Positions 14,679 to 36,429 of a stretch of DNA of 64,000 bases are shown piece after piece. The position numbers and the translations under genes were made by a program. Under the pieces are notes generated by a model. The model was not told where the DNA came from. It was given only the letters and a program-made list of their open reading frames with translations, and searched no databases. Source of the stretch: Brachybacterium ginsengisoli (lineage in GTDB: Bacteria; Actinomycetota; Actinomycetes; Actinomycetales; Dermabacteraceae); NCBI RefSeq assembly GCF_002407065.1, contig NZ_CP023564.1:558001-622000 (forward strand), written 5' to 3'. Each line of letters opens with the position of its first letter. Position 1 is the first letter of the stretch.

Positions 14679-14687
14679 TGCAGCGGG

Positions 14688-19328: not shown

Positions 19329-19426
19329 GTCTCGTTCCGTGGGGTGCGAAGGATGGACGGAGCGGTGAGGAGGTGAGCTGTGCGGGTCGAGGCACCGACA
19401 CAGGTCAGAGGGTCACATGGTGGGCG

Positions 19427-20680
19427 TCAGCGCCACAAGCCCTTGGTATCGATGAGGACCTTCTCCCGGAGCTTCTCCCGATCGAACTCCTTGAAGGGGT
19501 CGTGGTCCACCATGAGCAGCACGATGTCGGCGCGCTCCACGGCGTCGTCGAGCTCGGCGAGCTGGACGTTGTCCTTGCCTGCGAACTCCTTGGGGAGCTC
19601 CTCGATGTTCGGCTCCACCACGAGCACCGTGCCATGGTCCAGACGGTCGGTGAGAGCGAGGGCGATGTCCTTGGAGGGGGACTCGCGCAGGTCGTCGATG
19701 TTGGCCTTGAAGGCGATGCCGAGAGCGGCCACCAAGGGGTTCTTCAGCTTGTCGGCCTTCTTCATCACCTTGTCGAGCACCAGCTCGGGCTTGGAGTCGT
19801 TGACCTCGCGAGCGGTGCGGATCAGGTTCGAGTACTCACGATCCGCAGAGACGATGAACCACGGGTCCACGGCGATGCAGTGCCCGCCCACACCGGGGCC
19901 CGGCTGGAGGATGTTGACGCGCGGGTGATGGTTGGCGAGCGCGATCAGCTCCCACACGTCGATGCCCTGGCGCTCGGAGATGATCGAGAGCTCGTTGGCG
20001 AAGGCGATGTTCACATCACGGAACGCGTTCTCGGTGAGCTTGGCCATCTCGGCCGTGCGTGCGTCGGTGACCAGGAGCTCGCCGTGGCAGAAGCTCGCGT
20101 AGAGCTCACGGTTGAGCTCGCCGGCCTCTTTGCCGAGTCCACCGATGATCCGGTCGTTCTCGACCATCTCGATCATGATGCGTCCCGGCAGCACTCGCTC
20201 CGGGGCGTGGGAGAAGTAGAGGGAGTTCGGGAGGTTCGGCTCGGTGGTGAACTCGGGCCGGGCTTCGAGGATGACCTGTGCCATGTGCTCGGTGGCGCCG
20301 GGGGGAGAGGTGGACTCGAGGACGACGAGCTCGCCGCCCGAGAGCTTCGGGGCGATACCGGCCGCGGCGGCCTCGATGTAGGAGAGATCTGCGTCGTGAT
20401 CGCCCTTGAACGGCGTGGGGACCGAGACGATGTAGGCGTCCGCCACGGGAGTCTCGGTCTGGGCGGAGAGCTTGCCCTGGGCGACGGTGCCCGCGACGAC
20501 GGTCTCGAGCCCCTCCTCGACGAACGGCACCTTGCCGGCGTTGATCGCGTCGACGTTCGACTGCTTGATGTCGACGCCGATCACGGTCTTGCCCGCCTGC
20601 GCGAGAACAGCGGCCGTGGGAAGGCCGATGTAGCCGAGACCGATCACTGCCACGGTATCGAGAGGGACGTTCGGGCTCAT
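19427..20680 (-). CDS. wecC: UDP-N-acetyl-D-mannosamine dehydrogenase (WecC type)
   Basis: 417 residues. NAD-dependent four-electron oxidation of UDP-ManNAc to UDP-ManNAcA, supplying an amino-uronic acid for the polysaccharide. The N-terminal Rossmann motif is VAVIGLGYIGLP (residues 11-21). The catalytic cysteine block GPGVGGHCIAVDPWF has Cys268, and PERVLPGRIM is typical of the WecC rather than the UDP-glucose dehydrogenase branch. AAGGAG precedes the ATG. No UDP-GlcNAc 2-epimerase is visible in the window, so the substrate must come from elsewhere. It makes a uronic-acid polymer the likely product of the neighbouring glycosyltransferases and the likely substrate of the two heparinase-like proteins. 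Confidence 0.88.
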   Translation of the reverse strand: MSPNVPLDTVAVIGLGYIGLPTAAVLAQAGKTVIGVDIKQSNVDAINAGKVPFVEEGLETVVAGTVAQGKLSAQTETPVADAYIVSVPTPFKGDHDADLSYIEAAAAGIAPKLSGGELVVLESTSPPGATEHMAQVILEARPEFTTEPNLPNSLYFSHAPERVLPGRIMIEMVENDRIIGGLGKEAGELNRELYASFCHGELLVTDARTAEMAKLTENAFRDVNIAFANELSIISERQGIDVWELIALANHHPRVNILQPGPGVGGHCIAVDPWFIVSADREYSNLIRTAREVNDSKPELVLDKVMKKADKLKNPLVAALGIAFKANIDDLRESPSKDIALALTDRLDHGTVLVVEPNIEELPKEFAGKDNVQLAELDDAVERADIVLLMVDHDPFKEFDREKLREKVLIDTKGLWR

Positions 20681-20694
20681 CGAGGAATCTCCTT

Positions 20695-20723
20695 GGGTGG
20701 GGAGGGGAGGGGAGGGAGAGGGG
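20695..20723 (+). other. G-rich tract in the wecC leader (G-quadruplex-like)
   Basis: Five or more G-runs of 3-4 separated by single bases lie on the plus strand just upstream of the wecC start (minus strand), so the wecC mRNA leader is C-rich. The pattern satisfies a simple four-G-run quadruplex rule. The remaining 170 bp up to the next gene show no other clear structure. Confidence 0.4.
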
Positions 20724-20893
20724 CGGTCGAGGGTTACCGTAGCCCCTCAGGACCGATACCAGGACAGGGTGCAGGTCACGCAGCGGCGAAGTTACCCATC
20801 GTTCTTGTCACATGTACGGAATCCGATGCGGCGCGGGCTGGTCGAGCACGGTCCGCCGAATGCCGCTGATGCTGCCGGATCCTCGGTATGCGG

Positions 20894-22588
20894 TCAGATC
20901 GCAGGGAACGAGACGGCGGTCGGCGACAAGAGGATCCGCTCGGTGGTGCCGTTGATCGTCACATCCAGCACGATCCGGCCCGGCACCGCTACCGGCACCT
21001 GCTGGACGGTCGGTGGCGTCATCGACCCCGCGCTGAGCACGGTGACGAAGGTCAGCGCCGTGCCCCGCCGTTCGGCGAGGACGGCGGTGGCTGGAGCCAT
21101 CTGCTTCCAGCCCGTCGAGATGTATCCGTCGAACGGGTCATCCTGTGCGGTGATCGTCGAGATCTCCGTGGGCCCGTCATCGAACCACAGCACGCCCGAA
21201 CGATCACCTGAGGTGAGGGCGACCGTGTTCCCCTGGATCTCAGCGTCGACCGAGGTCCCCAGCTGCCATCGCTGCACGCCGGTGATCTGGCGCTTCGAGG
21301 CGGCGTGGTCGAGGACGACCAGGTACTCGCCGCGTGTCGAGAAGATGACTCGGCGAGTGATCTCGATGCCGTCGTAGCTCAGATCCTCGACCACGAACTC
21401 GTGGGCCCGCGAGGTGATCGAGCGGTGGGTCAGCTCCGTGTAGGGCTCTTTGAACGCTGTCCTGCCATCGATCGACAGCAGCGAGTGCGCGGCGCGGGAG
21501 ACGAAATGGTCTCGAGCAGTGCCGCGCCCGTACTGGTATTTGCCGGGATCGACCACCCAGTGGACTCCGCCTGCGGAGTACGTGAGTGAGGAGCCGTCAG
21601 GGTGTCCATGCACTCGCCGCGAGGGGCCGAATCGGAGAGAGTAGAAGGTCTGCTCGGCGAACGGCCGCTGACGCGTACCCCAGCCGGAGCGCCCGAAGAC
21701 GTAGCCCGCGTCGTAGACCTTCACCAGGTCCTTGGGGGCTGTGCCCTCGCGTCCGTTCGTCGTCACGTAGGCGACGAACGGACTCTGGACCTGCTTCGGG
21801 TTCTGCACATCGGTGTCCCCGATGGGGACGAGCGTCCCATCGGGCCGGGTGGCATGCGCGATCTCCTCCGGCGCCTGGAGGTGCCGGTCGGTGCCGTCAG
21901 GGCGGGGCAAGTTCTCCAGATCGAAGCGGCGCAGGGCCCGTTCCCACCACAGGAAGTTGTTGTAATGGTAGGCCGTGGCGCCCTCGGCGTTCACCCCCTG
22001 CTCGTCGTACTGCTCCATGAGCAGCGTGCTCATCCGGCGAGAAGCGAGCTGCCAGAGCCGCTCGTCCTTGAGCACACGACCGCACATGAAGAGGGACTCC
22101 TGCTGGTGGAGCGCGTGGTTGGCGTTGCCCATGTTCGCGGGATCCGCCAGGTGCTCTGCATGGACGCGGATCGTCCGCTCGAGCCACTCGAGCTGCTCGG
22201 GGTCGCGCTCGGCGAGCAGTGTCGATGCGGAGCACAGCTGCTGGGCACGGATGCCGTCCGACATGTCGGTCCATGCCCAGGAGGTCGTGGGCGCGCTGGG
22301 AGGGTTCTTCTCCACCCAGTCATGGATCCACCGCGACCACATCGCGTAGGCCCGATCGTCGCCGTGCGCCGCCGCTCGGCGCAGCGGATCGAGCCAGCGC
22401 AGCATGTGGTACTGGAACCGCCAGTTGCGATCCTCGAAAGGGTCCTCCAGCCAGGTGGGTTCCTCCGGCAGAGTCCACCGGGGGTGGGGAGACATGTGTA
22501 GCACGCCGGAGAGCAGCTTCTTGATCTCGTCCGGGTTCACGGACGTGACGAGCGTCTGCCGCCGAGCGGCCTCGAGGTCGAGCGTCAC
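20894..22588 (-). CDS. Heparinase II/III-family protein (copy 2)
   Basis: 564 residues from a GTG whose last two bases and the following A form the stop of the upstream glycosyltransferase gene (GTGA overlap). It parallels the copy at 12873-14678 along most of its length: MLRWLDPLRRAAAHGD, HALHQQESLFMCG, YHYNNFLWWERAL, then SLRFGPSRRVHGHPDGSSL and VVDPGKYQYG. The conserved histidine in VHGHPDG and an aromatic-rich active-site cleft are retained. As for copy 1, no signal peptide is seen. Expected to act on a uronic-acid glycan made by this cluster, either as a trimming lyase or in a non-catalytic role. Translational coupling to a glycosyltransferase favours a biosynthetic role over nutrient degradation. 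Confidence 0.82.
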   Translation of the reverse strand: MTLDLEAARRQTLVTSVNPDEIKKLLSGVLHMSPHPRWTLPEEPTWLEDPFEDRNWRFQYHMLRWLDPLRRAAAHGDDRAYAMWSRWIHDWVEKNPPSAPTTSWAWTDMSDGIRAQQLCSASTLLAERDPEQLEWLERTIRVHAEHLADPANMGNANHALHQQESLFMCGRVLKDERLWQLASRRMSTLLMEQYDEQGVNAEGATAYHYNNFLWWERALRRFDLENLPRPDGTDRHLQAPEEIAHATRPDGTLVPIGDTDVQNPKQVQSPFVAYVTTNGREGTAPKDLVKVYDAGYVFGRSGWGTRQRPFAEQTFYSLRFGPSRRVHGHPDGSSLTYSAGGVHWVVDPGKYQYGRGTARDHFVSRAAHSLLSIDGRTAFKEPYTELTHRSITSRAHEFVVEDLSYDGIEITRRVIFSTRGEYLVVLDHAASKRQITGVQRWQLGTSVDAEIQGNTVALTSGDRSGVLWFDDGPTEISTITAQDDPFDGYISTGWKQMAPATAVLAERRGTALTFVTVLSAGSMTPPTVQQVPVAVPGRIVLDVTINGTTERILLSPTAVSFPAI

Positions 22589-24177
22589 TCCACGATCTCC
22601 GCATACACCTCGGCGACGGTCGCCGCGAGCTGACGCCAGTCCCGTTCGGCCACCACCCAGTCGCGTGCCTGGCCGCCCAGCCGGGCAGCGAGTTCGTGGT
22701 CATCCAGCAGCAGCTCCAGCTGCCCGGTGAGCGAGTCGGCGCTGCCCTTGGCGTGCAGCAGGCCGTTCCTGCCCGGGGTCACGATCTCCGCGAGCGCGGC
22801 GACGTCCGAGGCGATGACCGCCTTGCCCATCGCCATCGCCTCGAAGGGCTTCAGCGGGGAGACCATCTCGCACACCGGCAGCGGCAGGCGCGGGAACGGC
22901 GTCACGTCGATGATCGAGTAGTACCGTTCCACCTCCTCGTGCGGGACGCGGCCGGTGAAGGTGACCACGTCATCCAGACCCTGAGAGGTCGCGCTCGACT
23001 GCAGCTCCTCGAGCTTGGCGCCGTCGCCGATGATCAGCACGTGGAAGTCCTCGCGACTGCGCTTCAGCGTGGCCGCGGATTCGAGCAGCAGGTCCAGCCC
23101 CTCGTAGTCCACGATCGTTCCCACGTACCCGATGACGGTCTTCCCGGCCACGCCCAGCTGTGCGGCGAGCTCCTCGTCACGGGGGAGCGGCGTGAAGCGC
23201 TCGGTGTCCACGCCGTTGGGAACGAGCACGATCTTGGCCTCGTCCACGCCGCGCTCCACCAACTCGGTCTTCAGCGCCTGCGTGATGGCGAGGACCTTCG
23301 TGGCGCCGCGGGCGGCGTCGGCCTCCATGCGGGCGATGTACCGGTACTGGTCGCTGCGGCCCCACTCGGGGTCGCGAGACCCGCGGGTGACCTCCCAGAG
23401 ACCGCGCACCTCGTACACCGACGGGATGCCGAGCAGGCGGCCGGTCTGCACGGCGGCCAGGCCGTTCCAGTGGTTCGAGGCGCCGTGCAGGATCGCAGGA
23501 CGCTCCGCGCGGGCCAGCGGCAGCAGCGCGTCGGTGTACCGCGCCACGTAGTCGTGCATCGGGTTCTTCTTCTCGATCTGCCGCCCGGTGAGCAGGTGGT
23601 GGTAGTCCACCTCGCCCACCACCTCGCTGGCCGGGAGCTCGGGGACGTCCGCCATCTTCGGCATGTCATAGGGATAGCCCAGCCGGGTCACGCCGTCCAC
23701 GTCCCAGCCGATGCGACCCAGCTCCGTGAGCAGGCCGTGGGTGCGGGTGGCGTAGCCGCCCGAGTGGTTGGGGAGGGCGTTGTGCAGCAGGTAGAGAACG
23801 TGGTCCGGGCGAGGTTCGTACTCGGGCTCGCTGCGCATCTCAGGAAGGGGGAAGCCGTTCCGTGCCAGATCGGAGTTGCGCACTGCAACGGACCCCGTGG
23901 CCGATGCGCCAGGAGTGTTCGAGAGCGCGGACGGCTTCGCCCGTCGCGATTCCTGGCGACTCCACCACAGGCGGAATTCGGCGATGCCGCCGTGGCGGAG
24001 GTGCCACAGCCCCTTCCTCAGGGTCGCGAAGTCTCCGGCGTTCGCGAGCGCCGACGGCTTCGCGCGGCGGGACTCCTGGCGGCTCCACCACTGCCGGAAT
24101 TCGGCGATGCCGCCGTGGCGGAGGTGCCACAGCCCCTTCCTCAGGGTGTCGAGGCGGGACGTCTGCGGGTCGGGCAC
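22585..24177 (-). CDS. GT4-family glycosyltransferase with duplicated N-terminal module
   Basis: 530 residues from the GTG at 24177 (GGAGG 8 bases upstream; the longer upstream frame shows no family features). Residues 11-51 and 52-85 are two near-identical copies of a basic, aromatic module starting TLRKGLWHLRHGGIAEF. The GT-B fold follows: HVLYLLHNALPNHSGGYATR near residue 130, VIGYVGTIVDYEGLDLLL in the donor half, and EMVSPLKPFEAMAMGKAV, the nucleotide-sugar-binding E-x7-E-type block of GT4 enzymes. The closest relative in the window is the first module of the 1546-residue protein. It probably transfers one sugar during assembly of the surface glycan at the cytoplasmic membrane face. The basic tandem module may help membrane or partner binding; this is inference. 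Confidence 0.82.
   Translation of the reverse strand: MPDPQTSRLDTLRKGLWHLRHGGIAEFRQWWSRQESRRAKPSALANAGDFATLRKGLWHLRHGGIAEFRLWWSRQESRRAKPSALSNTPGASATGSVAVRNSDLARNGFPLPEMRSEPEYEPRPDHVLYLLHNALPNHSGGYATRTHGLLTELGRIGWDVDGVTRLGYPYDMPKMADVPELPASEVVGEVDYHHLLTGRQIEKKNPMHDYVARYTDALLPLARAERPAILHGASNHWNGLAAVQTGRLLGIPSVYEVRGLWEVTRGSRDPEWGRSDQYRYIARMEADAARGATKVLAITQALKTELVERGVDEAKIVLVPNGVDTERFTPLPRDEELAAQLGVAGKTVIGYVGTIVDYEGLDLLLESAATLKRSREDFHVLIIGDGAKLEELQSSATSQGLDDVVTFTGRVPHEEVERYYSIIDVTPFPRLPLPVCEMVSPLKPFEAMAMGKAVIASDVAALAEIVTPGRNGLLHAKGSADSLTGQLELLLDDHELAARLGGQARDWVVAERDWRQLAATVAEVYAEIVE
23923..24147 (-). repeat. Tandem 123-bp intragenic duplication
   Basis: Two in-frame copies, 123 bp (41 codons) apart, inside the GT4 gene; a GAATTC core recurs at 23974 and 24097. 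The second copy ends after 34 codons. Protein and DNA are both nearly identical, so the duplication is recent or homogenised. Confidence 0.85.
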
Positions 24178-24292
24178 GGGGAACCTCCGGGCTGGGGGCG
24201 AGATCGCGCTCAGTCTAGAGCGGCGACCGACCGGTACGGTGGTGGACGGCGTGTGGTGATGACCCTGCGCACAGGACTTTCGAAGGACTGCG

Positions 24293-25342
24293 ATGACCGA
24301 CGTCGACACCCCGGCTCCGCACCGCCGCCCCTGGCTCCTCACCGGCGCGATCCTGCTCCTGGTGCTCGTCGTCCTTCTGGGCATCCTTGCCCTCCGTGGA
24401 CAGGGCGGCGCCGACCGCCATGCCGCTCCCGCCTCGTCGGCCGCAGCGACCACCACGGCGCCGCCGTACCCCTCGGCCCCCTACTCCCGCGTGGATGACA
24501 CCACCCTCACCGTCCCCGAGAAGACCCGCTTCGCCCCCGGCACCTTCTGGGCGACGGCGGGCACCGAGTACCTGGTCTCCATGGATCTCCAGAGCGTGAA
24601 GCCCGAGGGCAGCGGCGGTCGCTCCATGTACCTGGGCGTGACGCTGAGCTGCTCCCCGCAGGCCGGCGGCCCCGGCATCTCCGTCGGCGGAACCCAGAAC
24701 ATGCTCACCGGTGAGACGACGACCTACAGCAATCAGGGCCTCATCTCGGTGCCCGAGGACGGCGCGATCGACTGCAGCATCAAGGCGTCGGCCCCGTATG
24801 ACGACGTCGCCTCGAACGGCACCTCGTTCGACATCGACGCCACCTGGAACGCGACGCCCGTCGACGGCGAGGCGCAGGCCTCCGACGAGAAGGGACTGCC
24901 CCGCACGATCGCCGCCGGCGCCGAGGAGACGGTCATGAGCACCGACCTCCCGCCGGACCAGGGCGGCGGGGACGACCTGCACGCGCTGACCAGCCTCCAC
25001 CTGACCACCTGCACCATCGTGAACGGCTCCCGCGAGGACGGCCGCGCCTGGTGCTCACCGAACGCCCTCGACAAGAACGGCAGCACCGTGACCACCACGC
25101 TGAGAGCCGACCTCGTGGACGACAGCGGCACCGTCTGCCAGAACCTCGGGACGCTGTCCGGAGAAGCGGACCACATCGACCTCTACCGTCACCATCGGGT
25201 GCTGTCGCTCGAGCTTGACGAGACCGTGCCGAGGCAGCCATGCGGCGAGACAGTGCGTGTCTCGACGAGCGTGCACAACGAAGGTCCTGCGCCGTTGGTG
25301 GTGCATCGTTCGAACTCATCGCTCGTGGTGGTGGGGGAGTAG
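24293..25342 (+). CDS. Membrane-anchored secreted protein of unknown function
   Basis: 349 residues. A short cytoplasmic N-terminus is followed by one hydrophobic segment (residues about 15-35, LLTGAILLLVLVVLLGILAL), an Ala/Thr/Pro-rich linker and an extracellular domain of about 280 residues. The domain has at least six cysteines (e.g. LSCSPQ, AIDCSIK, LTTCTIV, RAWCSPN, GTVCQNL, RQPCGETV), consistent with disulfides. GAAGGA lies 5 bases before the ATG. It is divergent from the glycosyltransferase gene, with only about 115 bp between starts. I do not recognise a family. Confidence 0.65.
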   Translation: MTDVDTPAPHRRPWLLTGAILLLVLVVLLGILALRGQGGADRHAAPASSAAATTTAPPYPSAPYSRVDDTTLTVPEKTRFAPGTFWATAGTEYLVSMDLQSVKPEGSGGRSMYLGVTLSCSPQAGGPGISVGGTQNMLTGETTTYSNQGLISVPEDGAIDCSIKASAPYDDVASNGTSFDIDATWNATPVDGEAQASDEKGLPRTIAAGAEETVMSTDLPPDQGGGDDLHALTSLHLTTCTIVNGSREDGRAWCSPNALDKNGSTVTTTLRADLVDDSGTVCQNLGTLSGEADHIDLYRHHRVLSLELDETVPRQPCGETVRVSTSVHNEGPAPLVVHRSNSSLVVVGE

Positions 25343-25662: not shown

Positions 25663-26040
25663 ATGGCCACGGCACTGGTGATCGAGGACGACGACGACAT
25701 CCGTCGGCTGCTGGAGGTGGTGCTCGGCCAGGCCGGGTACCGCGTCTCCGCCGCGGCCAACGGTGCCGACGGGCTGGAGGCGCTCGAGGCGCAGTCCCCG
25801 GACCTCCTGCTGGTGGACGTGGGCCTGTCCGACATCGAGGGCTACGAGGTGGTGCGCCGTGCGCGCCCCCAGGTGGGCGGGCACATCGTGATGCTCAGCG
25901 CCCGGCCCGAGGAGTCCGATGCCCGGCTCGGTCTCGAGGCGGGTGCCGACGAATACCTGACCAAGCCGTTCCGCCCCCGCCGGTTGCGCGAGCAGCTCGC
26001 CGAGATCATCGAGCGACCCGTCACGAGCGGGGAACGGTGA
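25663..26040 (+). CDS. Receiver-only response regulator
   Basis: 125 residues, a single REC domain with no output domain. The acidic pair is D9/D10, the phospho-acceptor is D52 (LLLVDVGL), S79 holds the Thr/Ser position and K101 is in the TKPF motif. GAAGGGG precedes the ATG. Single-domain receivers act through protein contacts or phosphorelays rather than DNA binding. The gene converges on, and overlaps by 20 bp, the glycan synthase with an Hpt-like tail, whose own upstream neighbour is a sensor kinase. That arrangement suggests all three belong to one signalling unit, with this protein carrying the phosphate to, or competing for, the synthase tail. Confidence 0.88.
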   Translation: MATALVIEDDDDIRRLLEVVLGQAGYRVSAAANGADGLEALEAQSPDLLLVDVGLSDIEGYEVVRRARPQVGGHIVMLSARPEESDARLGLEAGADEYLTKPFRPRRLREQLAEIIERPVTSGER

Positions 26041-27910
26041 CCATCCGGGACTCGGTCACGGCCGGCTCCGCCTGACGCGGGGTGTCCAGCAGGGCGCGGC
26101 GCACCGACACCTCCTTGCGCAGCATGTCCACCGTCTCCCGACCGATCGCGAGGACCACCGGCAGCCGGTCGCGGCACTCCTCCAGAGCATCCCGCGCCAC
26201 GGCCTGTTCCAGACCGATGGAGGCCTGCTCGAGGCGCGCCGCTCCCACCATCGCCGAGGACACCCGGAGGCTGCCGATCGCGTCGCGGATCGCCGACGGA
26301 TCCTCAGCGGCGACCGCCCGCTCGAGCCGTGAGGCCCGGGTGGGCCACATGATGGCCCAGCCGGCCACGAAGTCGATCCCCAGATCGGAACGTCCCTCGA
26401 GCTCGGCGGAGAGCTCCTCGAGCTCCTCCAGGCGCATCAGCGGCAGCGCCTCCAGCGCCGCGTCGAGAATGACCGGAGCCGACGAGCGGCCGTCGGCGTT
26501 GCGTCGCGTCTTCGCCCAGCCGGTGCTGCCTGACAGCGCCCGCCAGGCGGCTCGCAGGTAGTACACGTAGGTCAGGTACACGTACACGAGGTTGCACAGC
26601 CCCAGCCCCACCGCGAGCGGCCAGGACACCTCCCCATCGGTCACCCGGTGATATACCAGCCCCCACACGGCGTAGGGCAGCACCAGGAAGAACAGTCCGG
26701 TGGCGACGATCGTCGCCAGGGAGCTCGCGGACCAGAACCCGCCGGGATCCTCCGTCAGGCCCAGGATCAGCAGCAGCGGTATCAGCACGAGGTTCAGCAT
26801 CATGATCAGCGGCTGCAGCATGAAGTAGTGGATCTCCAGCAGCCCGGCCGCGCTCAGATGACCGCTGCGTCGCAGCCCGGGCAGGGCGGAGGCGCACTCC
26901 ATGTTCCCCTGCGCCCAGCGGGTCCGCTGGGTGATCAACCGACGAGTGAAGGGCAGCGCCTCCTGGGACACATGGGCCTCGCGCACGTAGTGGTTGCGCA
27001 TCCCCTGGTGCAGGATGTTCAGCCCCAGCTCGTAGTCCTCGGAGAGCTTCTTCCCCCACGGCTTGCCGTGCTCCTCGGTGAGGGTGTCCAGCACCGAGAG
27101 CCGGGTGAACTGACCGTTCCCGCCCATGCCCACGGTGCCTGTACGCACACGCAGCACCTGCATCGCCGAGTTGGTGGTGCGGAACTCCAGATCCTGCATC
27201 CGCACCAGCGCTCGACCGACCGCATTGCGAAGCCGTCCGTCGTCCGGACGCGGCCGGCGGTCCCCGCGATTCTTCATCCACACCTCGAGCTGCACCGCAC
27301 CGATCGACTCGTCCCCGAAGGACTCGGGCCCGGCCAGCATCGGCAGCGCATTGTCGGAGAGGAAGCCGTCCGCGTCCAGCACCCCGACAATCGCGCGATG
27401 ACGCGTGGCCTCATCCCCGTCCACATGCTCCGAGACGATCCGGTAGGCGGCGTTGAGAGCATCGCCCTTCCCGGTCCGGGCCTCCGGCGCGATGCGCGAG
27501 ATCAGGTGCACGCGGTCGTCGAACACCATCAGGTCCCGCACGACCGCCGCAGTCGCGTCCTCGCTCGCGTCGTCGATCACCCAGACGTGCATCGCGGGGA
27601 ACGAGGAGCGGGCTGCGGAGACGGTCTCGGCGATCACGTTCTCCTCGTCGCGGCAGGGCACCAGCACGTGCCACTCGAGCTCAGCAGGATCACCGGGGGA
27701 ATTGCGCGGGCGGCGCACCTCGCGCAGGAAGGTCAGCAGCAGCAGCGACACGTAGGTGAGCGCGCAGGCGGCGACCGCGGTCAGCAGCGCCACCGCGACA
27801 TCGCGCCACAGGGACTCGCCGAGGGTGCCGAACACCCCGGAGACCCCGAAGGCCACCACGGCCAGGAGGGCGTAGAACACGGCCAGGACGACCGTCACTG
27901 CAGTTCTCAT
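26021..27910 (-). CDS. Processive GT2 polysaccharide synthase with degenerate Hpt-like C-terminus
   Basis: 629 residues from the ATG at 27910. Two N-terminal membrane segments (about 3-28 and 37-62) precede a GT2 catalytic domain with DDAS (113-116), DAD (179-181), SED (290-292) and QRTRW (328-332), the QxxRW motif of processive synthases such as cellulose and hyaluronan synthases. Further membrane segments follow at about 365-386, 396-420 and 432-452. Residues about 500-600 form a helical domain with Hpt spacing (FVAGWAIMWPTRASRLE, then SLRVSSAMVGAARLEQ), but the phospho-accepting histidine of the AHxLKGSS motif is replaced by Gly546. Longer upstream frames overlap the kinase and are not used. 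The synthase is flanked by a lone receiver protein and a sensor kinase, which suggests post-translational control of polymer synthesis. Confidence 0.85.
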   Translation of the reverse strand: MRTAVTVVLAVFYALLAVVAFGVSGVFGTLGESLWRDVAVALLTAVAACALTYVSLLLLTFLREVRRPRNSPGDPAELEWHVLVPCRDEENVIAETVSAARSSFPAMHVWVIDDASEDATAAVVRDLMVFDDRVHLISRIAPEARTGKGDALNAAYRIVSEHVDGDEATRHRAIVGVLDADGFLSDNALPMLAGPESFGDESIGAVQLEVWMKNRGDRRPRPDDGRLRNAVGRALVRMQDLEFRTTNSAMQVLRVRTGTVGMGGNGQFTRLSVLDTLTEEHGKPWGKKLSEDYELGLNILHQGMRNHYVREAHVSQEALPFTRRLITQRTRWAQGNMECASALPGLRRSGHLSAAGLLEIHYFMLQPLIMMLNLVLIPLLLILGLTEDPGGFWSASSLATIVATGLFFLVLPYAVWGLVYHRVTDGEVSWPLAVGLGLCNLVYVYLTYVYYLRAAWRALSGSTGWAKTRRNADGRSSAPVILDAALEALPLMRLEELEELSAELEGRSDLGIDFVAGWAIMWPTRASRLERAVAAEDPSAIRDAIGSLRVSSAMVGAARLEQASIGLEQAVARDALEECRDRLPVVLAIGRETVDMLRKEVSVRRALLDTPRQAEPAVTESRMVTVPRS

Positions 27911-28046
27911 GGTCGTGCTCACTTCCTCATGGTCGTCTCCGGACGATCGTAGCGATCCGAGAATGCTGCACATACGGCCCGGAGGCACGTGGATCCGCGG
28001 TGTGCGGCACAGTTCCCGCGCCTGCGGCCTTCGTGCCCCGTGGTGT

Positions 28047-29744
28047 CTATGTCGTCGGGGAGTCCCTCTGCCCGGGATCGTCGGCCCCCTCCGCATGGGA
28101 TTCCAGCGGGAAGCGGATGGTGAAGGTGGAGCCCTCGCCGAGGATCGAGCGCACCGAGATCTGCCCGTTGTGCGCCACCACGATCCTGCGGGTGAGGGAC
28201 AGCCCGATGCCGTGGCCGGCGATCGCGCTCTCCCGTGCGGTCGGAGTGCGGTAGTACTCGGTGAACAGCTCGGTCTGCTCCTTGGCGGACATCCCGACTC
28301 CGGAGTCGACGACGGTGAGCTCGACATGGTTGCTGCGCACTCCGGTGTGCACCGAGACACGGCCCTCGCGCGGGGTGTACTTCAGGGCGTTGGAGAGCAG
28401 GTTGGCGACCGCCTGGCGCATCCGGTGCGCGTCCAGCGGAAGCTCCGGCGTCTCCCGAAGGTCCTGCTCGATCTCGATCCCTGCGTCCTGAGCCTGCGGG
28501 GCGACGCTCTCCGCACAATCTCGCGCGATCTCGGAGAGCCGGTCGGGGCGCAGCGTCAGCTGCTGGGTACCCGAGCGCGAAACCTGGTCGGAGAGCAGGT
28601 CCTGCACGATCAGCAGCAGCTGCTCCGCATTGCGGCTCGCCACCTCCAGATGCGAGGTTGCTTCCACCGAGAGGTCACGATCGTCCCGGGCCAGCTCGAG
28701 ATACCCGATCACCGAGGTCAGCGGGGTCCGCAGCTCATGGGACACCGCAGCGACGAACCGCTCCTGCGAACGGACGGTCTCGATGTAGGAGCTGACGTCC
28801 GAGAACACCACCACCGCTCCCGAGCGGACTCCGCGATGGTCGAGGATCTGACGCGCCGAGGCGGAGAAAGAGGCTCCGCGCCCGGGGGGTCCGGCGGTGA
28901 CGATGTAGTTGGAGAAGGTCTCCCCCAGCACCGCCCGTCGCACGGGCCGCTGCTCCGTCGGGATCGCGGTTGAGGTTCCGGGATACCGCAGCAGCAGGAG
29001 ACCCTCGTCCGGATCCGCGACGCCCTCCGGGGTGCAGAGCTCGTGGATCCGACGCTGGGTCCGGTTCATCAGCACGTCGTGACCATCACGGTCCACCACC
29101 ACGATCCCGACGTCCACACTGTCGATGATGCTGGTCAGCAGCTGCTCCGAGGTGTCGGCGGCTTCGAGCAGCGCGGCCTTCTCCCTGAGCCCCTGAGCCA
29201 GTTGGTCGTTCCGGCCGTCCAGCAGCGCCAGCCCGCCCGTGATCAGCAGTCCGATCTGCAGCACGGTGAACGGCAGCAGCAGCGAGTTCGCGATCGTCAG
29301 CGAATCGATGAGCTCCGTGCGAACCAGCGCCGGGACGGTGACCAGCAGGGTGACGCTGGCGGTGCCGATGAGCACACCGGCGGAGCGCAACCGGGCCGCC
29401 AGCCAGACGACCGGGATAAGAGTCAACAAGGAGACTGCGACGGCGTAGTCGCGCATGAGGTCCCGGGTGACGGCAACGGCCACGATGTCCATCACCGGGA
29501 CCACCGCTCCCCAGGAGGCGGGGAGCGCCTCCCAGCGGATCGTCATCGCAAGTACGGTCGCGAGCACCAGGATGCCCAGGGCGAACAGGTACGGCGCCGC
29601 GATCACCAGCTCGATGTGGGAGAGCGCGATCAGCGCCGTGAAGGAGAGCATGAACCCCGCGAAGTACAGCTGCTTCGACGCAGTCCCGCCGACAGGGGAG
29701 CGGACGCGGTCGAGTCGTGCGGACAGTGAGCCGGGGACCTGCAC
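28047..29744 (-). CDS. PAS-domain sensor histidine kinase
   Basis: 565 residues from a GTG at 29744 with GAGGAG 7 bases upstream. About six N-terminal membrane helices (28-176) form an integral membrane sensor. A PAS-like region (about 200-320) is followed by HisKA with His336 in VAAVSHELRTPLTSVIGY, the N box NLLSNALKY (Asn452), the G1 box VDSGVGMS (Asp480) and the G2 box GHGIGLSL. All catalytic residues are present, so it should autophosphorylate. No DNA-binding response regulator is adjacent. The nearest partners are the glycan synthase with the Hpt-like tail, 136 bp downstream on the same strand, and the lone receiver gene beyond it. A decayed relative lies at 57893-58490. Confidence 0.9.
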   Translation of the reverse strand: MQVPGSLSARLDRVRSPVGGTASKQLYFAGFMLSFTALIALSHIELVIAAPYLFALGILVLATVLAMTIRWEALPASWGAVVPVMDIVAVAVTRDLMRDYAVAVSLLTLIPVVWLAARLRSAGVLIGTASVTLLVTVPALVRTELIDSLTIANSLLLPFTVLQIGLLITGGLALLDGRNDQLAQGLREKAALLEAADTSEQLLTSIIDSVDVGIVVVDRDGHDVLMNRTQRRIHELCTPEGVADPDEGLLLLRYPGTSTAIPTEQRPVRRAVLGETFSNYIVTAGPPGRGASFSASARQILDHRGVRSGAVVVFSDVSSYIETVRSQERFVAAVSHELRTPLTSVIGYLELARDDRDLSVEATSHLEVASRNAEQLLLIVQDLLSDQVSRSGTQQLTLRPDRLSEIARDCAESVAPQAQDAGIEIEQDLRETPELPLDAHRMRQAVANLLSNALKYTPREGRVSVHTGVRSNHVELTVVDSGVGMSAKEQTELFTEYYRTPTARESAIAGHGIGLSLTRRIVVAHNGQISVRSILGEGSTFTIRFPLESHAEGADDPGQRDSPTT

Positions 29745-30275: not shown

Positions 30276-30397
30276 CGTTCGCCTCCTCGTCGGCGTGCGG
30301 GGTGCACGGCGAGCATAGCGATCGCCCTTGCGCCGGCTCGCGGTTCGTGGTGATCTGAGCCCGTTCGCAACGGGCCGTCGACGAGGGGGTGCTGCCG

Positions 30398-30934
30398 ATG
30401 CGTGACACCCTTCGTCGTCGAGCTCCGCAGCGGCGGTGGTCCGTGCGGCTGCGCGTGCTGCTCGCCGCCGGGCTCGTGCTCGGGGCAGGAGCCACCTCGA
30501 GCCTCGCGGACTGGTGGGACACCGAGCAGGCCTCGGCGACCTTCCGGGCCGGAGAGGTCCCCGCTCCCGCCCTCACCCGAGCGTGCGAGTACAGCCCCGG
30601 GGTGATCGGCCTCGGGGCGCGGGTGCGCATCTTCTGGGCCCTGCCCCCGGGGTACTCCCTCGCGGACGTCCGGGTGCTGGCCTCGACCAGCGGGCTCGGT
30701 TCCGTGCTCGCCCCGCTGACGGGATTCTCCGTGCAGGGGAACACCCAGCAGCTGGCCGACGGCACCTACCGCACCGAAGTCCCCACCAACCTCCTGGGCG
30801 GTCTGCTCGGGCTGGGCTCGGAGCTCGAGATCGCGATCACCGTCGTGAACGGCCAGTGGGTGTCGAGGTCGGCCTCCGTCGCCAGCAACGCGGGCCTGCT
30901 CGCCGGCATCGGAGGCACCTGCCGCAACCTCTAG
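30398..30934 (+). CDS. SipW-type exported protein
   Basis: 178 residues from the ATG at 30398 (GAGGGGG 8 bases upstream; a GTG at 30389 is the alternative). The N-terminus has the SipW-dependent signal pattern: arginine-rich n-region, VRLRVLLAAGLVLGAGATSS, then DWWDTEQASATFRAG, the W-D/x-F-x-A-G pattern that follows the cleavage site in TasA/CalY-like proteins. The mature domain is small and probably beta-rich. TasA-like proteins assemble into fibres or the biofilm matrix in Bacillus; here that role is inferred. The likely processing enzyme is the SipW fusion at 43155-44516. Confidence 0.78.
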   Translation: MRDTLRRRAPQRRWSVRLRVLLAAGLVLGAGATSSLADWWDTEQASATFRAGEVPAPALTRACEYSPGVIGLGARVRIFWALPPGYSLADVRVLASTSGLGSVLAPLTGFSVQGNTQQLADGTYRTEVPTNLLGGLLGLGSELEIAITVVNGQWVSRSASVASNAGLLAGIGGTCRNL

Positions 30935-31935: not shown

Positions 31936-34900
31936 GTGGTACACCAGCAGAACCCACCGCCCGCGACGAGACGGCGGCGATCACCCTTGCTCAAGGGTGT
32001 CGTCGCGTCGTTCGCCACGGCGAGCCTCACCCTTCTCGGCCTGCCTGCAGTGCACGCCGCGGAGAGCGACCAGTCCGAAGGCCTCGGGCGCGTCATCAAC
32101 GCCGATGTGCTCAGCCTCGATCTCGCGGACGCCGGCACCAGCCAGTCGGGCTTCCCGAGCGATGCGGGGCCGAACGCCAACCCGCTGAACGTCGGCGTCA
32201 TCAACGATTCCGTGGCGCTGGATCTCGGCACGACCACGCTGCCGCTGATCGGCGACGAGAACAACGTCGGCCTGCTGCATCTCGGTCAGGTCGGCGCAGT
32301 CTCGAGCTTCGCCTCCTCGCCGGATGCCCTGAACTCCACCGCGAGCGCCGGAGCAGTGGGCGAGGGCGGGGCCCTCGACCTCGACGGCATCGCCAACGGA
32401 ACCTACGGCAGCGCCCGCGTCGACCTCACCACGCTGCTCGAGCAGGCCGGCGTGGACGGGCTCACGGACCAGATCGTCGATGAGCTCTCGCTCGAGCTCG
32501 GCGCCCTCGGCTCCACGGCCACGGAAGAGGCCGGCACGGTCTCCTCCGAGTACGTGGTCGCCGACGGCAAGCTCGTGATCAGCTCGCCGCTGGTCGCCGA
32601 ACTCTCCACCGAGCTGGATTCCGCGGTGACGGGAGTGGGCACCACCCTGAACTCGGCGGTGGGGGCGGATGGGGTCCTCGGAACCGTCGCACAGAACGCC
32701 TCGCTCGATCTGAACGTCGGCCTCGTCCGGGTGCAGGGCGGTGGCGGAACCATCGGCGTCACCGGTCTCGATGCCGCGCTCGCCGAGGCGAGCGACTCTC
32801 TCCTCGTGGAGCCGCTGACCGATGCCAACGGCCTGGTGTCCATCAACCTGGCGGATGGCACCATCGAGGTCGACCTGCAGCAGCTGGGAGGAGCGGATGG
32901 TCTGAACGGGCTGCCCGCCAACACCGAGCTGCTGGACGCGACCACGATCGGACTCATCACCGGCGCGGTGACCGAGGCGCTCGGCACCGTGTCCGACCGC
33001 GCCGGTCAGGTGCTGATCGACGACGTCTTCAACAACGTCGGCCTCACCATCGAGCTGCCTGCGCGGGTGTCGACCCTCGGTCTCCCCGCGGCCACTGTGG
33101 ACATCGTCGTCGAGACGACCATCGGTCAGCTCGCCGGCACCGCCGACGGCCAGCCGACCGTCAGCATCGACGGCAACCTGCTCGGGATCATCCCGATCGG
33201 CACCCTGCTCAGCGCTGTCGAGCCGGTCATCCAGACCGTGCTGATCGCGCCGCTCCAGGGCGTCGTGGGCGGGCTCGTGGACACCACGACCACCGGCCTG
33301 ACCGAGACCCTCGACGGTCTCATCAACCCGGTGCTCACCACCCTCGACCCGGTTCTGGATGGCGTGCTCTCCGAGGTCGTCTCCGTGACGATCAACGAGC
33401 AGCCGTCGCCCGGCTACCTCGGCGCGGAGTCGTTCACCGTGAACGCGCTCAGCCTCGAGCTGCTGCCGAACCTCGCGGCCGTGAACGTCGACCTCGCCTC
33501 CTCCACGGTGCGCGCGGCCGACGAGGTCGTCGATCCGACGATCGCCGTGGATCCCGGCACCGTCACCGATGGTGACACCACCACCGTCACCGGTGAGGCC
33601 TACCCGGCGAACACCGAGGTCTCGGTGCAGCTGACCGACGCTGACGGCAACCCCGTCGGCGATCCCGTCTCCGTCACCACGGACGACACCGGCGCGTTCA
33701 CCACCGACCTCACGGTGCCCGAGGGCACCGAGGCCGGCGAGTTCTCGGTCGTCGGCGCCGCGACCGGCGGTGAGACCGCTTCGGCCCCGCTGCAGGTGGT
33801 CAATGCACCGGCCATCACCGCGGATCCCGATCGCGTGCCCGCTGGCGACAGCACCACGGTGACCGGCACCGACTTCCCGGCCGACTCCGAGGTGACCGTG
33901 CAGCTCCAGGATGCCGATGGCAACCCCATCGGTGACCCGGTCACGGTCACGACCGACTCTGATGGCAACTTCACCACGGAGCTCCCCGTGCCCGCCGGTA
34001 CCCCGGAGGGCGAGGACTACGTGATCGAGGCTGTGGCCGAGAGCGGTGAGTCGGCGACCACGCCTCTCGCCGTCATCGGTGACAACCAGGCCGACAATAC
34101 GGCTGACAACACGGACGTGAACACCGAGGTCAACACCGCTGAGAACACGGACGTCAACACGGATGTGAACACGGCGGACAACGCTGCTGAGAACACCGAC
34201 GTCAACACCGATGTGAACACGGCAGATAACGCTGCTGAGAACACGGATGTCAACACGGATGTCAACACGGCGGACAACGCTGCCGAGAACACTGACGTGA
34301 ACACCGAGGTGAACACTGCTGACAACACTGAGGTGAACGCGGCGGACAACACCGAGGTCAACACGGACGTGAACACGGCAGATAACGCTGCCGAGAACAC
34401 TGACGTGAACACCGAGGTGAACACTGCTGACAACACTGAGGTGAACGCGGCGGACAACACCGAGGTCAACACGGACGTGAACACGGCGGACAATGCTGCC
34501 GAGAACACCGACGTGAACACCGAGGTGAACACTGCTGACAACACTGAGGTGAACGCGGCGGACAACACCGAGGTCAACACGGACGTGAACACGGCGGACA
34601 ACGCTGCCGAGAACACGGATGTCAACACCGAGGTGAACACTGCTGACAACACTGAGGTGAACGCGGCGGACAACACCGAGGTCAACACCGACGTGAACAC
34701 GGCAGACAACGCTGCCGAGAACACCGACGTGAACACCGAGGTGAACACTGCTGACAACACTGAGGTGAACGCGGCGGACAACACCGAGGTCAACACCGAC
34801 GTGAACACGGCAGACAATGCTGCCGAGAACACCGACGTGAACACCGAGGTGAACACTGCTGACAACACTGAGGTGAACGCGGCGGACAACACCGAGGTCA

Positions 34901-36429
34901 ACACCGACGTGAACACGGCAGACAATGCTGCCGAGAACACCGACGTGAACACCGAGGTGAACACTGCTGACAACACTGAGGTGAACGCGGCGGACAACAC
35001 CGAGGTCAACACCGACGTGAACACGGCAGACAATGCTGCCGAGAACACCGACGTGAACACCGAGGTGAACACTGCTGACAACACTGAGGTGAACGCGGCG
35101 GACAACACCGAGGTCAACACCGACGTGAACACGGCAGACAATGCTGCCGAGAACACCGACGTCAACACCGAGGTCAACACCGCTGAGAACACAGGTGACA
35201 ACACCGCGGACAACACGGCGGTCGCAGAGATCACCGTGACGCCCAAGCGTGCTGTTCAGGGCGAGGACACCGTCCTCGTCTCCGGCACCGGCTACACCCC
35301 GAGCGGGACGGCCGAGGCGTACCTCCGACCGATCGATGGCCCGGTTCTCGCGAACGTCGAGCCGCTCGCCACTCTCCTCCGGGCGATCACCGTGCCGGGT
35401 GAGCCGATCGGAACCGTCGACGTCGATGAGAACGGCGAGGCGACCTTCCGGATCGACACTGCTGATCTCGAGATCGGCGACTATGTGGTCACCTTGATCG
35501 ACAACGAGGACCCGAAGCTCGCCGACTCGGAGACGTTCACCGTGGTCGTCGCGGGTTCTTCGGACAACACCGCAGAGAACACGGCGGACAACACCGGCGC
35601 GAACACCGAGGTGAACACGGCGGAGAACACCGACGCGAACACCGAGGTCAACACTGACGTGAACACGGCGGAGAACACCGACGTGAACACCGAGGTCAAC
35701 ACTGACGTGAACACGGCGGAGAACACCGACGTGAACACTGAGGCCAATGCTGAGGTGAACACCGCGGAGAACACCGACGTGAACACCTCGGAGAACACCG
35801 CTGACAACGCCGGCGACAACGCCACCGCTGAGGACCCGGCTGTCTCGGTCGACCCGTCGACCGTCGAGCCCGGTGACTCCACCACGGTGACCGGCGAGGG
35901 CTTCCCGCCGAACACCGAGGTCGAGGTTCAGCTGATCGATCCGTCGGGCAACCCCGTCGGCGATCCGGTGAGCGTCACCACCGATGAGGACGGCGCATTC
36001 ACCGTCGACCTCGTCGTGCCCGAGGGTTCCGTCGTGGGCGATTACACGGTCGAGGCCACCGCTGAGACCGGGGAGTCCGCCACCGCGGATCTCACCGTGA
36101 TCGCCGGTTCCGATGACAACACGGCAGATAACACCGGTGACAACACCGGCGCGAACACCGGTGCCAACGCCGGCGACAACACCTCGGACAACTCGTCCGA
36201 CAACGTCTCGGCCAACCCCGGGGGCAACGGCTCCGGCTCGACCGGTAACGGTTCCGCCGGTACCGGCTCCGGCTCCGGTTCGTCCGGCTCCGGTTCGGGC
36301 AGCTCCTCCGGTTCGGGCTTCCTCGCCCAGACCGGTGCTGCCGGCACCGCTGCGATGGTGGGGCTCGCCGCCCTGCTGCTCGTCGGCGGCGCCGCAGGGA
36401 TCTTCCTGTCCCGCCGTTCCGCGTCCTGA
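31936..36429 (+). CDS. Giant Asn/Thr-repeat surface adhesin with LAQTG anchor (choice-of-anchor G type)
   Basis: 1497 residues. GAAGGAG is 5 bases before the GTG at 31936; an ATG two bases earlier is in another frame. A Sec signal peptide (cleavage near AVHA-AE) is followed by a region (about 35-528) with the GxVINADVLSLDLADAGTS start and repeated Val/Leu-rich blocks typical of choice-of-anchor-G proteins. Two Ig-like modules follow (about 529-705: VDPGTVTDGDTTTVTGEAYP and a second copy). Next come a long tetrapeptide-repeat region (about 716-1095), a further domain (1096-1208), a second repeat block, a third Ig-like module (about 1300-1393) and a Gly/Ser/Asn-rich stalk. The C-terminus is LAQTG (1463-1467), a membrane helix and RRSAS. 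LAxTG is the class E sortase signal of high-GC actinobacteria, so the protein should be wall-linked and act in adhesion or aggregation. Confidence 0.85.
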   Translation: MVHQQNPPPATRRRRSPLLKGVVASFATASLTLLGLPAVHAAESDQSEGLGRVINADVLSLDLADAGTSQSGFPSDAGPNANPLNVGVINDSVALDLGTTTLPLIGDENNVGLLHLGQVGAVSSFASSPDALNSTASAGAVGEGGALDLDGIANGTYGSARVDLTTLLEQAGVDGLTDQIVDELSLELGALGSTATEEAGTVSSEYVVADGKLVISSPLVAELSTELDSAVTGVGTTLNSAVGADGVLGTVAQNASLDLNVGLVRVQGGGGTIGVTGLDAALAEASDSLLVEPLTDANGLVSINLADGTIEVDLQQLGGADGLNGLPANTELLDATTIGLITGAVTEALGTVSDRAGQVLIDDVFNNVGLTIELPARVSTLGLPAATVDIVVETTIGQLAGTADGQPTVSIDGNLLGIIPIGTLLSAVEPVIQTVLIAPLQGVVGGLVDTTTTGLTETLDGLINPVLTTLDPVLDGVLSEVVSVTINEQPSPGYLGAESFTVNALSLELLPNLAAVNVDLASSTVRAADEVVDPTIAVDPGTVTDGDTTTVTGEAYPANTEVSVQLTDADGNPVGDPVSVTTDDTGAFTTDLTVPEGTEAGEFSVVGAATGGETASAPLQVVNAPAITADPDRVPAGDSTTVTGTDFPADSEVTVQLQDADGNPIGDPVTVTTDSDGNFTTELPVPAGTPEGEDYVIEAVAESGESATTPLAVIGDNQADNTADNTDVNTEVNTAENTDVNTDVNTADNAAENTDVNTDVNTADNAAENTDVNTDVNTADNAAENTDVNTEVNTADNTEVNAADNTEVNTDVNTADNAAENTDVNTEVNTADNTEVNAADNTEVNTDVNTADNAAENTDVNTEVNTADNTEVNAADNTEVNTDVNTADNAAENTDVNTEVNTADNTEVNAADNTEVNTDVNTADNAAENTDVNTEVNTADNTEVNAADNTEVNTDVNTADNAAENTDVNTEVNTADNTEVNAADNTEVNTDVNTADNAAENTDVNTEVNTADNTEVNAADNTEVNTDVNTADNAAENTDVNTEVNTADNTEVNAADNTEVNTDVNTADNAAENTDVNTEVNTAENTGDNTADNTAVAEITVTPKRAVQGEDTVLVSGTGYTPSGTAEAYLRPIDGPVLANVEPLATLLRAITVPGEPIGTVDVDENGEATFRIDTADLEIGDYVVTLIDNEDPKLADSETFTVVVAGSSDNTAENTADNTGANTEVNTAENTDANTEVNTDVNTAENTDVNTEVNTDVNTAENTDVNTEANAEVNTAENTDVNTSENTADNAGDNATAEDPAVSVDPSTVEPGDSTTVTGEGFPPNTEVEVQLIDPSGNPVGDPVSVTTDEDGAFTVDLVVPEGSVVGDYTVEATAETGESATADLTVIAGSDDNTADNTGDNTGANTGANAGDNTSDNSSDNVSANPGGNGSGSTGNGSAGTGSGSGSSGSGSGSSSGSGFLAQTGAAGTAAMVGLAALLLVGGAAGIFLSRRSAS
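34270..35133 (+). repeat. Eight tandem 108-bp repeats in the adhesin
   Basis: Eight 36-codon units, each opening ADNAAENTDVNTEVNT, with an internal 12-bp (4-residue xxN[TA]) sub-periodicity. The core at 34329 recurs every 108 bp to 35085 with only scattered synonymous changes. They are flanked by shorter 48-bp units at 34170-34270 and by related xxNT stretches at 35565-35820 and 36115-36210. Confidence 0.95.

Follow-up and report, generated by a model that had tools for sequence, protein, structure and literature searches.

The locus and its three genes

The window, a stretch of 64,000 nucleotides from the genome of Brachybacterium ginsengisoli, contains a locus of three genes. One encodes a response regulator (RR) composed of a receiver (REC) domain only (25663..26040, plus strand), a protein of 125 aa that matches Pfam Response_reg at 2.4e-25. 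The second encodes a membrane polysaccharide synthase of the GT2 type with a predicted C-terminal pseudo-Hpt domain (26021..27910, minus strand; 629 aa; Glyco_tranf_2_3 at 2e-24), which starts with ATG at 27910 and whose frame closes at 26021. The third encodes a membrane PAS histidine kinase (28047..29744, minus strand; 565 aa; PAS_4 at 2.4e-5, HisKA at 1.5e-15, HATPase_c at 3.2e-26), in which sequence motifs identify the H, N, G1, and G2 boxes and whose presumed start codon is GTG. The kinase and GT2 genes are spaced by 136 bp on the minus strand, and the 3' end of the GT2 gene overlaps the REC gene by 20 bp, tail-to-tail. Because the REC gene lies on the strand opposite to the other two, it is convergent with them and outside their operon. 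Coordinates, Pfam matches, and motifs agree with the initial annotation, which had placed a REC protein, a QxxRW-type GT2 with an Hpt-like tail, and a PAS kinase at one locus.

The REC protein carries the phosphoacceptor D52 together with S79 and K101, and above its cut-off Pfam yields Response_reg alone, as is typical of a single-domain RR. The genome (3.95 Mb) gives 29 RR matches in total. The open frame of the window REC (140 aa) is the shortest among them, followed by one of 224 aa, and it is the sole match with an open frame below 200 aa.

The D, DxD, ED, and QxxRW motifs of a processive GT2 synthase are all found in the second protein. Their residues (D113/D114, D179/D181, E291/D292, and Q328/R331/W332) are invariant across the 18 rows of the alignment, suggesting that the enzyme is probably active. 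The fold neighbours of the full-length GT2 model are cellulose and hyaluronan synthases, and the enzyme probably builds a surface sugar polymer. It scores 537.4 bits against NCBIfam NF053846 (XrtP-associated glycosyltransferase; cut-off 520), and no PilZ domain appears among its Pfam matches up to E 1. An exosortase partner for the window GT2 was ruled out by the finding of zero matches to TIGR04178 in its own genome. Among relatives that lack the tail, an exosortase-family (XrtS-like) gene adjoins the GT2 gene in all three scanned loci (L090, L092, and L096); all three neighbours score above the TIGR04178 cut-off, and one also exceeds the XrtS cut-off. A tblastn search for plasmid relatives gave 20 records, all below 60% identity and none reaching 80% query coverage.

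Other genes of the window lie on both sides of the locus. Two heparinase II/III-like proteins, GT4-type proteins, and a UDP-sugar dehydrogenase are encoded at 12873-24456 (minus strand), adjoining the GT2 locus, and this region is a likely exopolysaccharide cluster. GT4, heparinase, and dehydrogenase genes also adjoin the GT2 gene in a related locus (L098). Near the kinase, 30389-30934 (plus strand) encodes a 181-aa protein with a signal peptide of the SipW-dependent type (TIGR04088). A protein of 1497 aa, encoded at 31936-36429 (plus strand), combines a choice-of-anchor G domain, recognised by NCBIfam, with long Asn-rich repeats of the NTADNTxVNT type, and the AT skew reaches 0.437 at 34-36 kb of the window.

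The synthase tail and the conservation of the gene set

The tail of the GT2 protein (residues 494-609; 26084..26431, minus strand) was delimited by the helices of the model and by structural matches to Hpt domains. The Pfam Hpt family (PF01627) scores 23.1 bits on the whole GT2 protein, against a cut-off of 24.6 (E 8.8e-5), and 26.7 bits on the isolated tail (E 6.9e-6). The same search of the 3.95-Mb genome found no Hpt match besides this tail. AlphaFold2, run on the tail with 18 related tails, returned a bundle with a pLDDT of 86.8. In a Foldseek comparison of this model with the PDB, rows 1-37 were all Hpt or CheA-P1 domains, with an E-value no better than 3.0e-3 and a TM to the target of 0.81 for the best row. 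VIA-align gave Z 16.0 to Hpt 3myf and Z 15.8 to HptB 7c1i (rmsd 1.8 over 114 residues). The best Hpt matches reached Z 14-16 compared with 11.2 for the top unrelated row; for helical bundles, VIA-align itself cautions against reading much into a Z of about 13 or less. The Hpt-REC complexes AHP1-ARR1 and Ypd1-Sln1 are among the structural matches. In the full-length GT2 model, of modest confidence (pLDDT 76.8), the bundle at 494-609 comes after the GT core and long helices and is preceded by a low-confidence linker (464-479). Structure prediction of the tail had been called for in the initial annotation, and its outcome bears out the Hpt-like assignment: the GT2 tail is predicted to be a four-helix Hpt-type bundle.

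The phospho-accepting histidine of Hpt domains is absent from this bundle. In a profile alignment of the tail with HptB, a weak sequence match (E 0.014), the histidine falls on Gly546 (codon 26273..26275, minus strand), the same residue that had originally been pointed out. Among the 18 distinct tailed relatives, this column holds Gly in nine, Ala in eight, and Val in one. An accidental loss of the histidine in a single genome is ruled out by these 18 non-His residues out of 18.

A search for related loci gave 14, of which 12 have the tail (Brachybacterium, Brevibacterium, Nesterenkonia, and Arthrobacter); of the two not counted as tailed, L014 has no tail and L015 ends at a contig edge. In the order-wide search, the GT2 was matched in 38 of 396 genomes. 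Twelve of these matches extend into the tail, while the remaining 26 match the GT2 core, one of them, with an internal stop, reaching residue 558. The genus-wide search matched 9 of 38 genomes.

All 18 distinct tailed loci have a REC-only RR, which is convergent in 17 and divergent in one, an Arthrobacter locus (L008) with a REC-HK arrangement. A histidine kinase lies within 4 kb in all 18. The initial annotation had called for a search for the three-gene set in other actinobacteria; tailed homologues there retain a receiver and a kinase as neighbours, and neither of the two outcomes that the annotation named as contradicting it (a tail without an Hpt-type fold, or synthase homologues with no such neighbours) was seen. 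The D, S, and K residues are retained in all 17 convergent RECs of GT2 loci, and an SHE[LM]RTP H-box is present in the kinase frame at each of the 18 loci, with an NxxxNG-type N-box in the three Brevibacterium kinases. Nine of the 26 core-matching relatives, fetched with larger flanks, form the tailless comparison. Seven of these nine have no REC throughout an 18-kb stretch; in L089 the closest REC is at least 6.5 kb away, and L095 has none on its 6.3-kb contig.

A different state is found in another Brachybacterium genome (G284; L186 and L251), where the kinase and the REC are 69% and 77% identical to those of the window and a GT2 match is absent. Besides the REC belonging to the GT2 set, this genome has two kinases and a pseudo-Hpt that stands alone with its own OmpR-type RR (L186, 4963-10299, and L251). 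The kinase and REC frames abut, as though the GT2 gene had been lost from between them. The presence of the REC without any GT2 indicates that it can persist without the tail. In genome G211 (L027 / L103), one frame covers residues 1-379 of the GT2 and a second covers 378-628; the gene may be broken, or the assembly may be wrong at this point. A Nesterenkonia kinase (L010, 6178-8130, plus strand) is split across two frames near its C-terminus by a frameshift or a sequencing error.

A family of His-less Hpt domains and its response regulators

Profiles built on the tails (A2, then A3) detect further Hpt-like domains of this kind in Actinobacteria, in searches of both the class and the order. 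They occur as stand-alone frames of about 120-270 aa, as fusions to SipW-type signal peptidases, and in longer frames (L176, L199, and L083). In the order, A3 matched 88 times, in 56 of 396 genomes, and all but the five weakest of these matches were fetched. Five matches of the class search (G483, G508, G561, G601, and G663) were set aside. At the phylum level, 51 of 396 genomes matched; the three loci added from this search were all hybrid kinases with His, and most of the other matches lie in long frames. The hybrid kinases L062-L065 and L067 were kept outside the tables and, by reading, have three His and two Glu at the column. The final set, which excludes the window, was reduced from 111 rows to 101 distinct ones and then to 95 by removing six hybrid-kinase rows, five of which retain His and one of which has Glu. 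Pfam Hpt matches at E up to 0.01 were found in 21 of 22 A3 members.

The histidine is absent in 93 of the 95 distinct non-hybrid members. Leu is the most frequent residue in its column (63), followed by Gly (9), Ala (8), Ile (3), Val (3), Met (2), Gln (2), and one each of Arg, Ser, and Glu. The two His-bearing members are L189 (78 bits) and L217 (36 bits); in L189 (4978-5589, minus strand), the histidine stands at the Hpt position in an otherwise His-less family, as a reversion or an ancestral state. Among the 81 members scoring at least 55 bits, Gly at +10 from the lost histidine is universal, and Ser at +1 (79), Arg at -21 (78), Ala at +11 (72), Met at +8 (72), and K/R at +3 (62) are frequent. 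Judged from the aligned sequences, the former active-site face stays conserved without its histidine.

By genomic context, the 95 members comprise 18 fused to GT2, 9 fused to a SipW-type peptidase, 9 downstream of a SipW-type gene, 8 after a tadC-like gene, and 51 others. The nine downstream members share the strand of the SipW-type peptidase gene and lie no more than 120 bp beyond it, and the eight tadC-associated members also lie on the same strand as the gene before them. In L069, L070, L162, and L164-L168, Tad-pilus genes are followed by a same-strand stand-alone His-less Hpt that is convergent with an OmpR-type regulator; Pfam identifies T2SSF, T2SSE, and a TadZ-like ATPase in L069, and T2SSF and T2SSE in L070. 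A SipW-type peptidase with a C-terminal His-less Hpt occupies a single frame in L074, L076, L084, L190, L192, L193, and L195-L197, and the gene preceding that of L076 matches camelysin (Peptidase_M73). The pseudo-Hpt of L068 adjoins GGDEF and GGDEF-EAL genes, and the layout of L072 looks similar.

A convergent RR, with its REC within 1.3 kb, accompanies 69 of the 95 members. In a control on 21 of these loci (L068-L088), which used custom-made gene calls, 228 other genes were counted, and 11 of them had such a convergent RR. The other 26 members have no convergent RR inside 1.3 kb, and 18 of them have no RR anywhere in the fetched stretch. These linkage counts are phylogenetically dependent: they are not independent of one another because the fusion to GT2 was probably a single event. 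The partner-type RRs of L008 (14199) and L070 (2495) have no second pseudo-Hpt next to them in a search with the A3 profile, even at E 10.

The partner RRs differ between GT2 loci and the rest of the family. A winged helix was found in all 52 convergent RRs outside the GT2 loci, which are of the OmpR type, and in none of the 18 RRs at GT2 loci, so that the DNA-binding domain is missing there only; the distinction between REC-only and winged-helix proteins rests in most loci on small custom HMMs. Custom HMMs built from 2 to 21 sequences served to identify REC and winged-helix domains, kinases, and the SipW and Tad proteins. The gap between REC and Hpt agrees with this difference, since it measures 7-156 bp in GT2 loci (n=17; median 95 bp) compared with 256-1221 bp elsewhere (n=52; median 440 bp), and the difference between the medians is approximately the size of the absent domain. 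Statistical tests on these differences took no account of relatedness and exaggerate their significance.

A careful REC tree of 99 rows, with the RRs of the window genome as its only background, separated 71 partner RECs from 28 other RRs of that genome (94/92). With the latter as the outgroup, a clade of 55 rows (99/98) contains 19 REC-only and 36 OmpR-type sequences, and 16 further OmpR-type partner rows fall outside it. The 19 REC-only sequences group together (100/100). Their nested position among OmpR-type partners is read as a loss of the DNA-binding domain. A broader REC tree, built quickly and retaining 135 of 143 rows, has a branch (97) with the 69 partners together on one side. Ten rows labelled as background also fell on this side, namely the window REC, the GT2 REC of the Arthrobacter locus L008, and eight others, all from loci with a pseudo-Hpt farther off or otherwise oriented. 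In the pseudo-Hpt tree, the GT2-fused tails group together (support 99), suggesting that the fusion probably occurred once. Computation shows the three genes, the predicted Hpt fold, the absence of the histidine, the conservation of the set, and its coinheritance with one REC clade.

A proposed switch and its alternatives

Docking between Hpt and REC domains is known. In the mechanism proposed here, the PAS kinase in the membrane would phosphorylate the stand-alone REC at D52, and the REC, in its phosphorylated or unphosphorylated form, would dock on the C-terminal bundle of the synthase, an Hpt fold without its histidine. The phosphate would stop at the REC because the histidine is missing from the bundle, and the docked REC-bundle complex would itself open or close the synthase. 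The REC has no winged helix and the genome has no other Hpt match, which makes the synthase the simplest output. The docking, its control by phosphorylation, the direction in which it acts, and the nature of the polymer are inferred. A two-component switch that acts directly on a membrane polysaccharide synthase through REC docking on a pseudo-Hpt is considered reasonably probable. Against it speak the 26 family members with no convergent RR close by, the Brachybacterium genome with kinase and REC but no GT2, the histidine of L189, the dependence among the counts, and the modest confidence of the full-length model. The initial annotation, whose interpretation of the locus is partly supported, had suggested such switching by docking, and this part is now favoured by the coinheritance of the REC, the loss of the DNA-binding domain at GT2 loci only, and the kept face of the bundle.

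The family suggests an origin for this arrangement. The ancestral module may have consisted of a kinase, an OmpR-type RR, and a convergent stand-alone pseudo-Hpt, for example with Tad pili and SipW-type peptidases. In a later capture of this older module, the pseudo-Hpt would have been fused to GT2, and the winged helix of the RR would have been lost. The OmpR-type relatives presumably act on transcription, which may be involved at the GT2 loci as well. In a wider form, the proposal states that a dedicated RR clade of Actinobacteria is directed by His-less Hpt domains, serving as docking handles without phosphotransfer, to machines that build the surface (GT2 polymer synthases, SipW-type signal peptidases, and Tad pili), and that the RR of the GT2 branch, having shed its DNA-binding domain, controls the enzyme alone. 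This wider proposal is about as likely as not.

The pseudo-Hpt could instead be a sink or insulator that competes for the REC against other targets, with docking that leaves synthesis unswitched. Passages of PMC7402358 describe a plant pseudo-HPt with Asn in place of His as a negative regulator, and the non-GT2 loci do have a full OmpR-type RR that a pseudo-Hpt could sequester. However, the RR has no output domain to sequester at any of the 18 GT2 loci, and the window genome offers no further Hpt match as a competitor, so that this explanation is unlikely. A flow in the reverse direction, in which the surface machine (GT2, SipW, or Tad) reports its state through the pseudo-Hpt to the RR or kinase as feedback, would be consistent with the OmpR-type partners beside SipW-type and Tad genes. 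It is likewise unlikely, as the REC of the GT2 loci lacks a DNA-binding domain and would have no obvious feedback output except onto the kinase.

Helical bundles are common, and Z values up to about 13 are weakly informative, which would suit a tail that is a mere structural or oligomerisation bundle, with the REC and kinase serving another target and the linkage incidental. The margin of the best Hpt matches over unrelated bundles, the centring of conservation on the former active site, and the membership of the partner RECs in one clade linked across unrelated machines all argue against it and make it very unlikely. Acceptance of phosphate on another residue of the tail, such as the near-invariant Ser beside the lost histidine, is the least credible explanation and highly improbable. 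This Ser would be a candidate acceptor by its conservation, but the His-bearing Hpt domains found here likewise have Thr, Ser, or Ala after the histidine, and to our knowledge no His/Asp-to-Ser relay is known. The direct switch by REC docking remains the preferred reading.

If true, this reading would add a direct two-component switch to the control of synthases, beside c-di-GMP, which is the main means of post-translational switching in bacterial synthases. It would also give a role to Hpt folds that are unable to carry phosphate. The family illustrates how one fusion and one domain loss could turn a transcriptional two-component system into an enzyme switch, and, within Actinobacteria, it connects kinases with pili, polysaccharide, and the secretion of matrix proteins.

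The individual parts are known; no prior description of a REC, a pseudo-Hpt-GT2, and a kinase together was found in the open-licence literature, where the papers retrieved on pseudo-Hpts concern plants, judging by their titles. Passages of PMC11481889 describe the Caulobacter Hmr relay with putative Hpts, where the phrase 'lacks the conserved histidine' concerns the kinase domain. The missing-histidine phrase in the passages of PMC3842833 concerns the RcsD transmitter rather than an Hpt. Flp/Tad genes of M. luteus lie beside a PAS kinase in passages of PMC8467076, which do not mention 'Hpt'. The nearest described pseudo-Hpt found in this literature is plant AHP6. Like the tail, AHP6 is an Hpt without His. 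According to passages of PMC7402358, it is a stand-alone competitor in the cytokinin relay, unlike the tail described here, which is part of an enzyme with its own REC.

The tail resembles Hpt domains such as HptB and the ArcB Hpt (PF01627) in its predicted bundle fold, the SSxxxGA motif, and the basic residue at +3, and differs from them in having no phospho-histidine, in the replacement of the +4 Gly, and in its fusion to a membrane GT2. The synthase shares the processive GT2 fold and the D/DxD/ED/QxxRW motifs with BcsA and class I hyaluronan synthase. BcsA is switched via its PilZ domain and c-di-GMP, whereas the window GT2 has no PilZ match. Its core resembles the XrtP-associated glycosyltransferases of NF053846 in scoring above their cut-off; unlike the three scanned tailless relatives, which have an exosortase-family gene beside the GT2, it lies in a genome without an exosortase match. 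CheY, through FliM, and DivK are single-domain RRs that act by docking on a protein partner. The REC of the window likewise has no output domain, and it differs from CheY and DivK in its proposed partner, a His-less Hpt on a glycosyltransferase.
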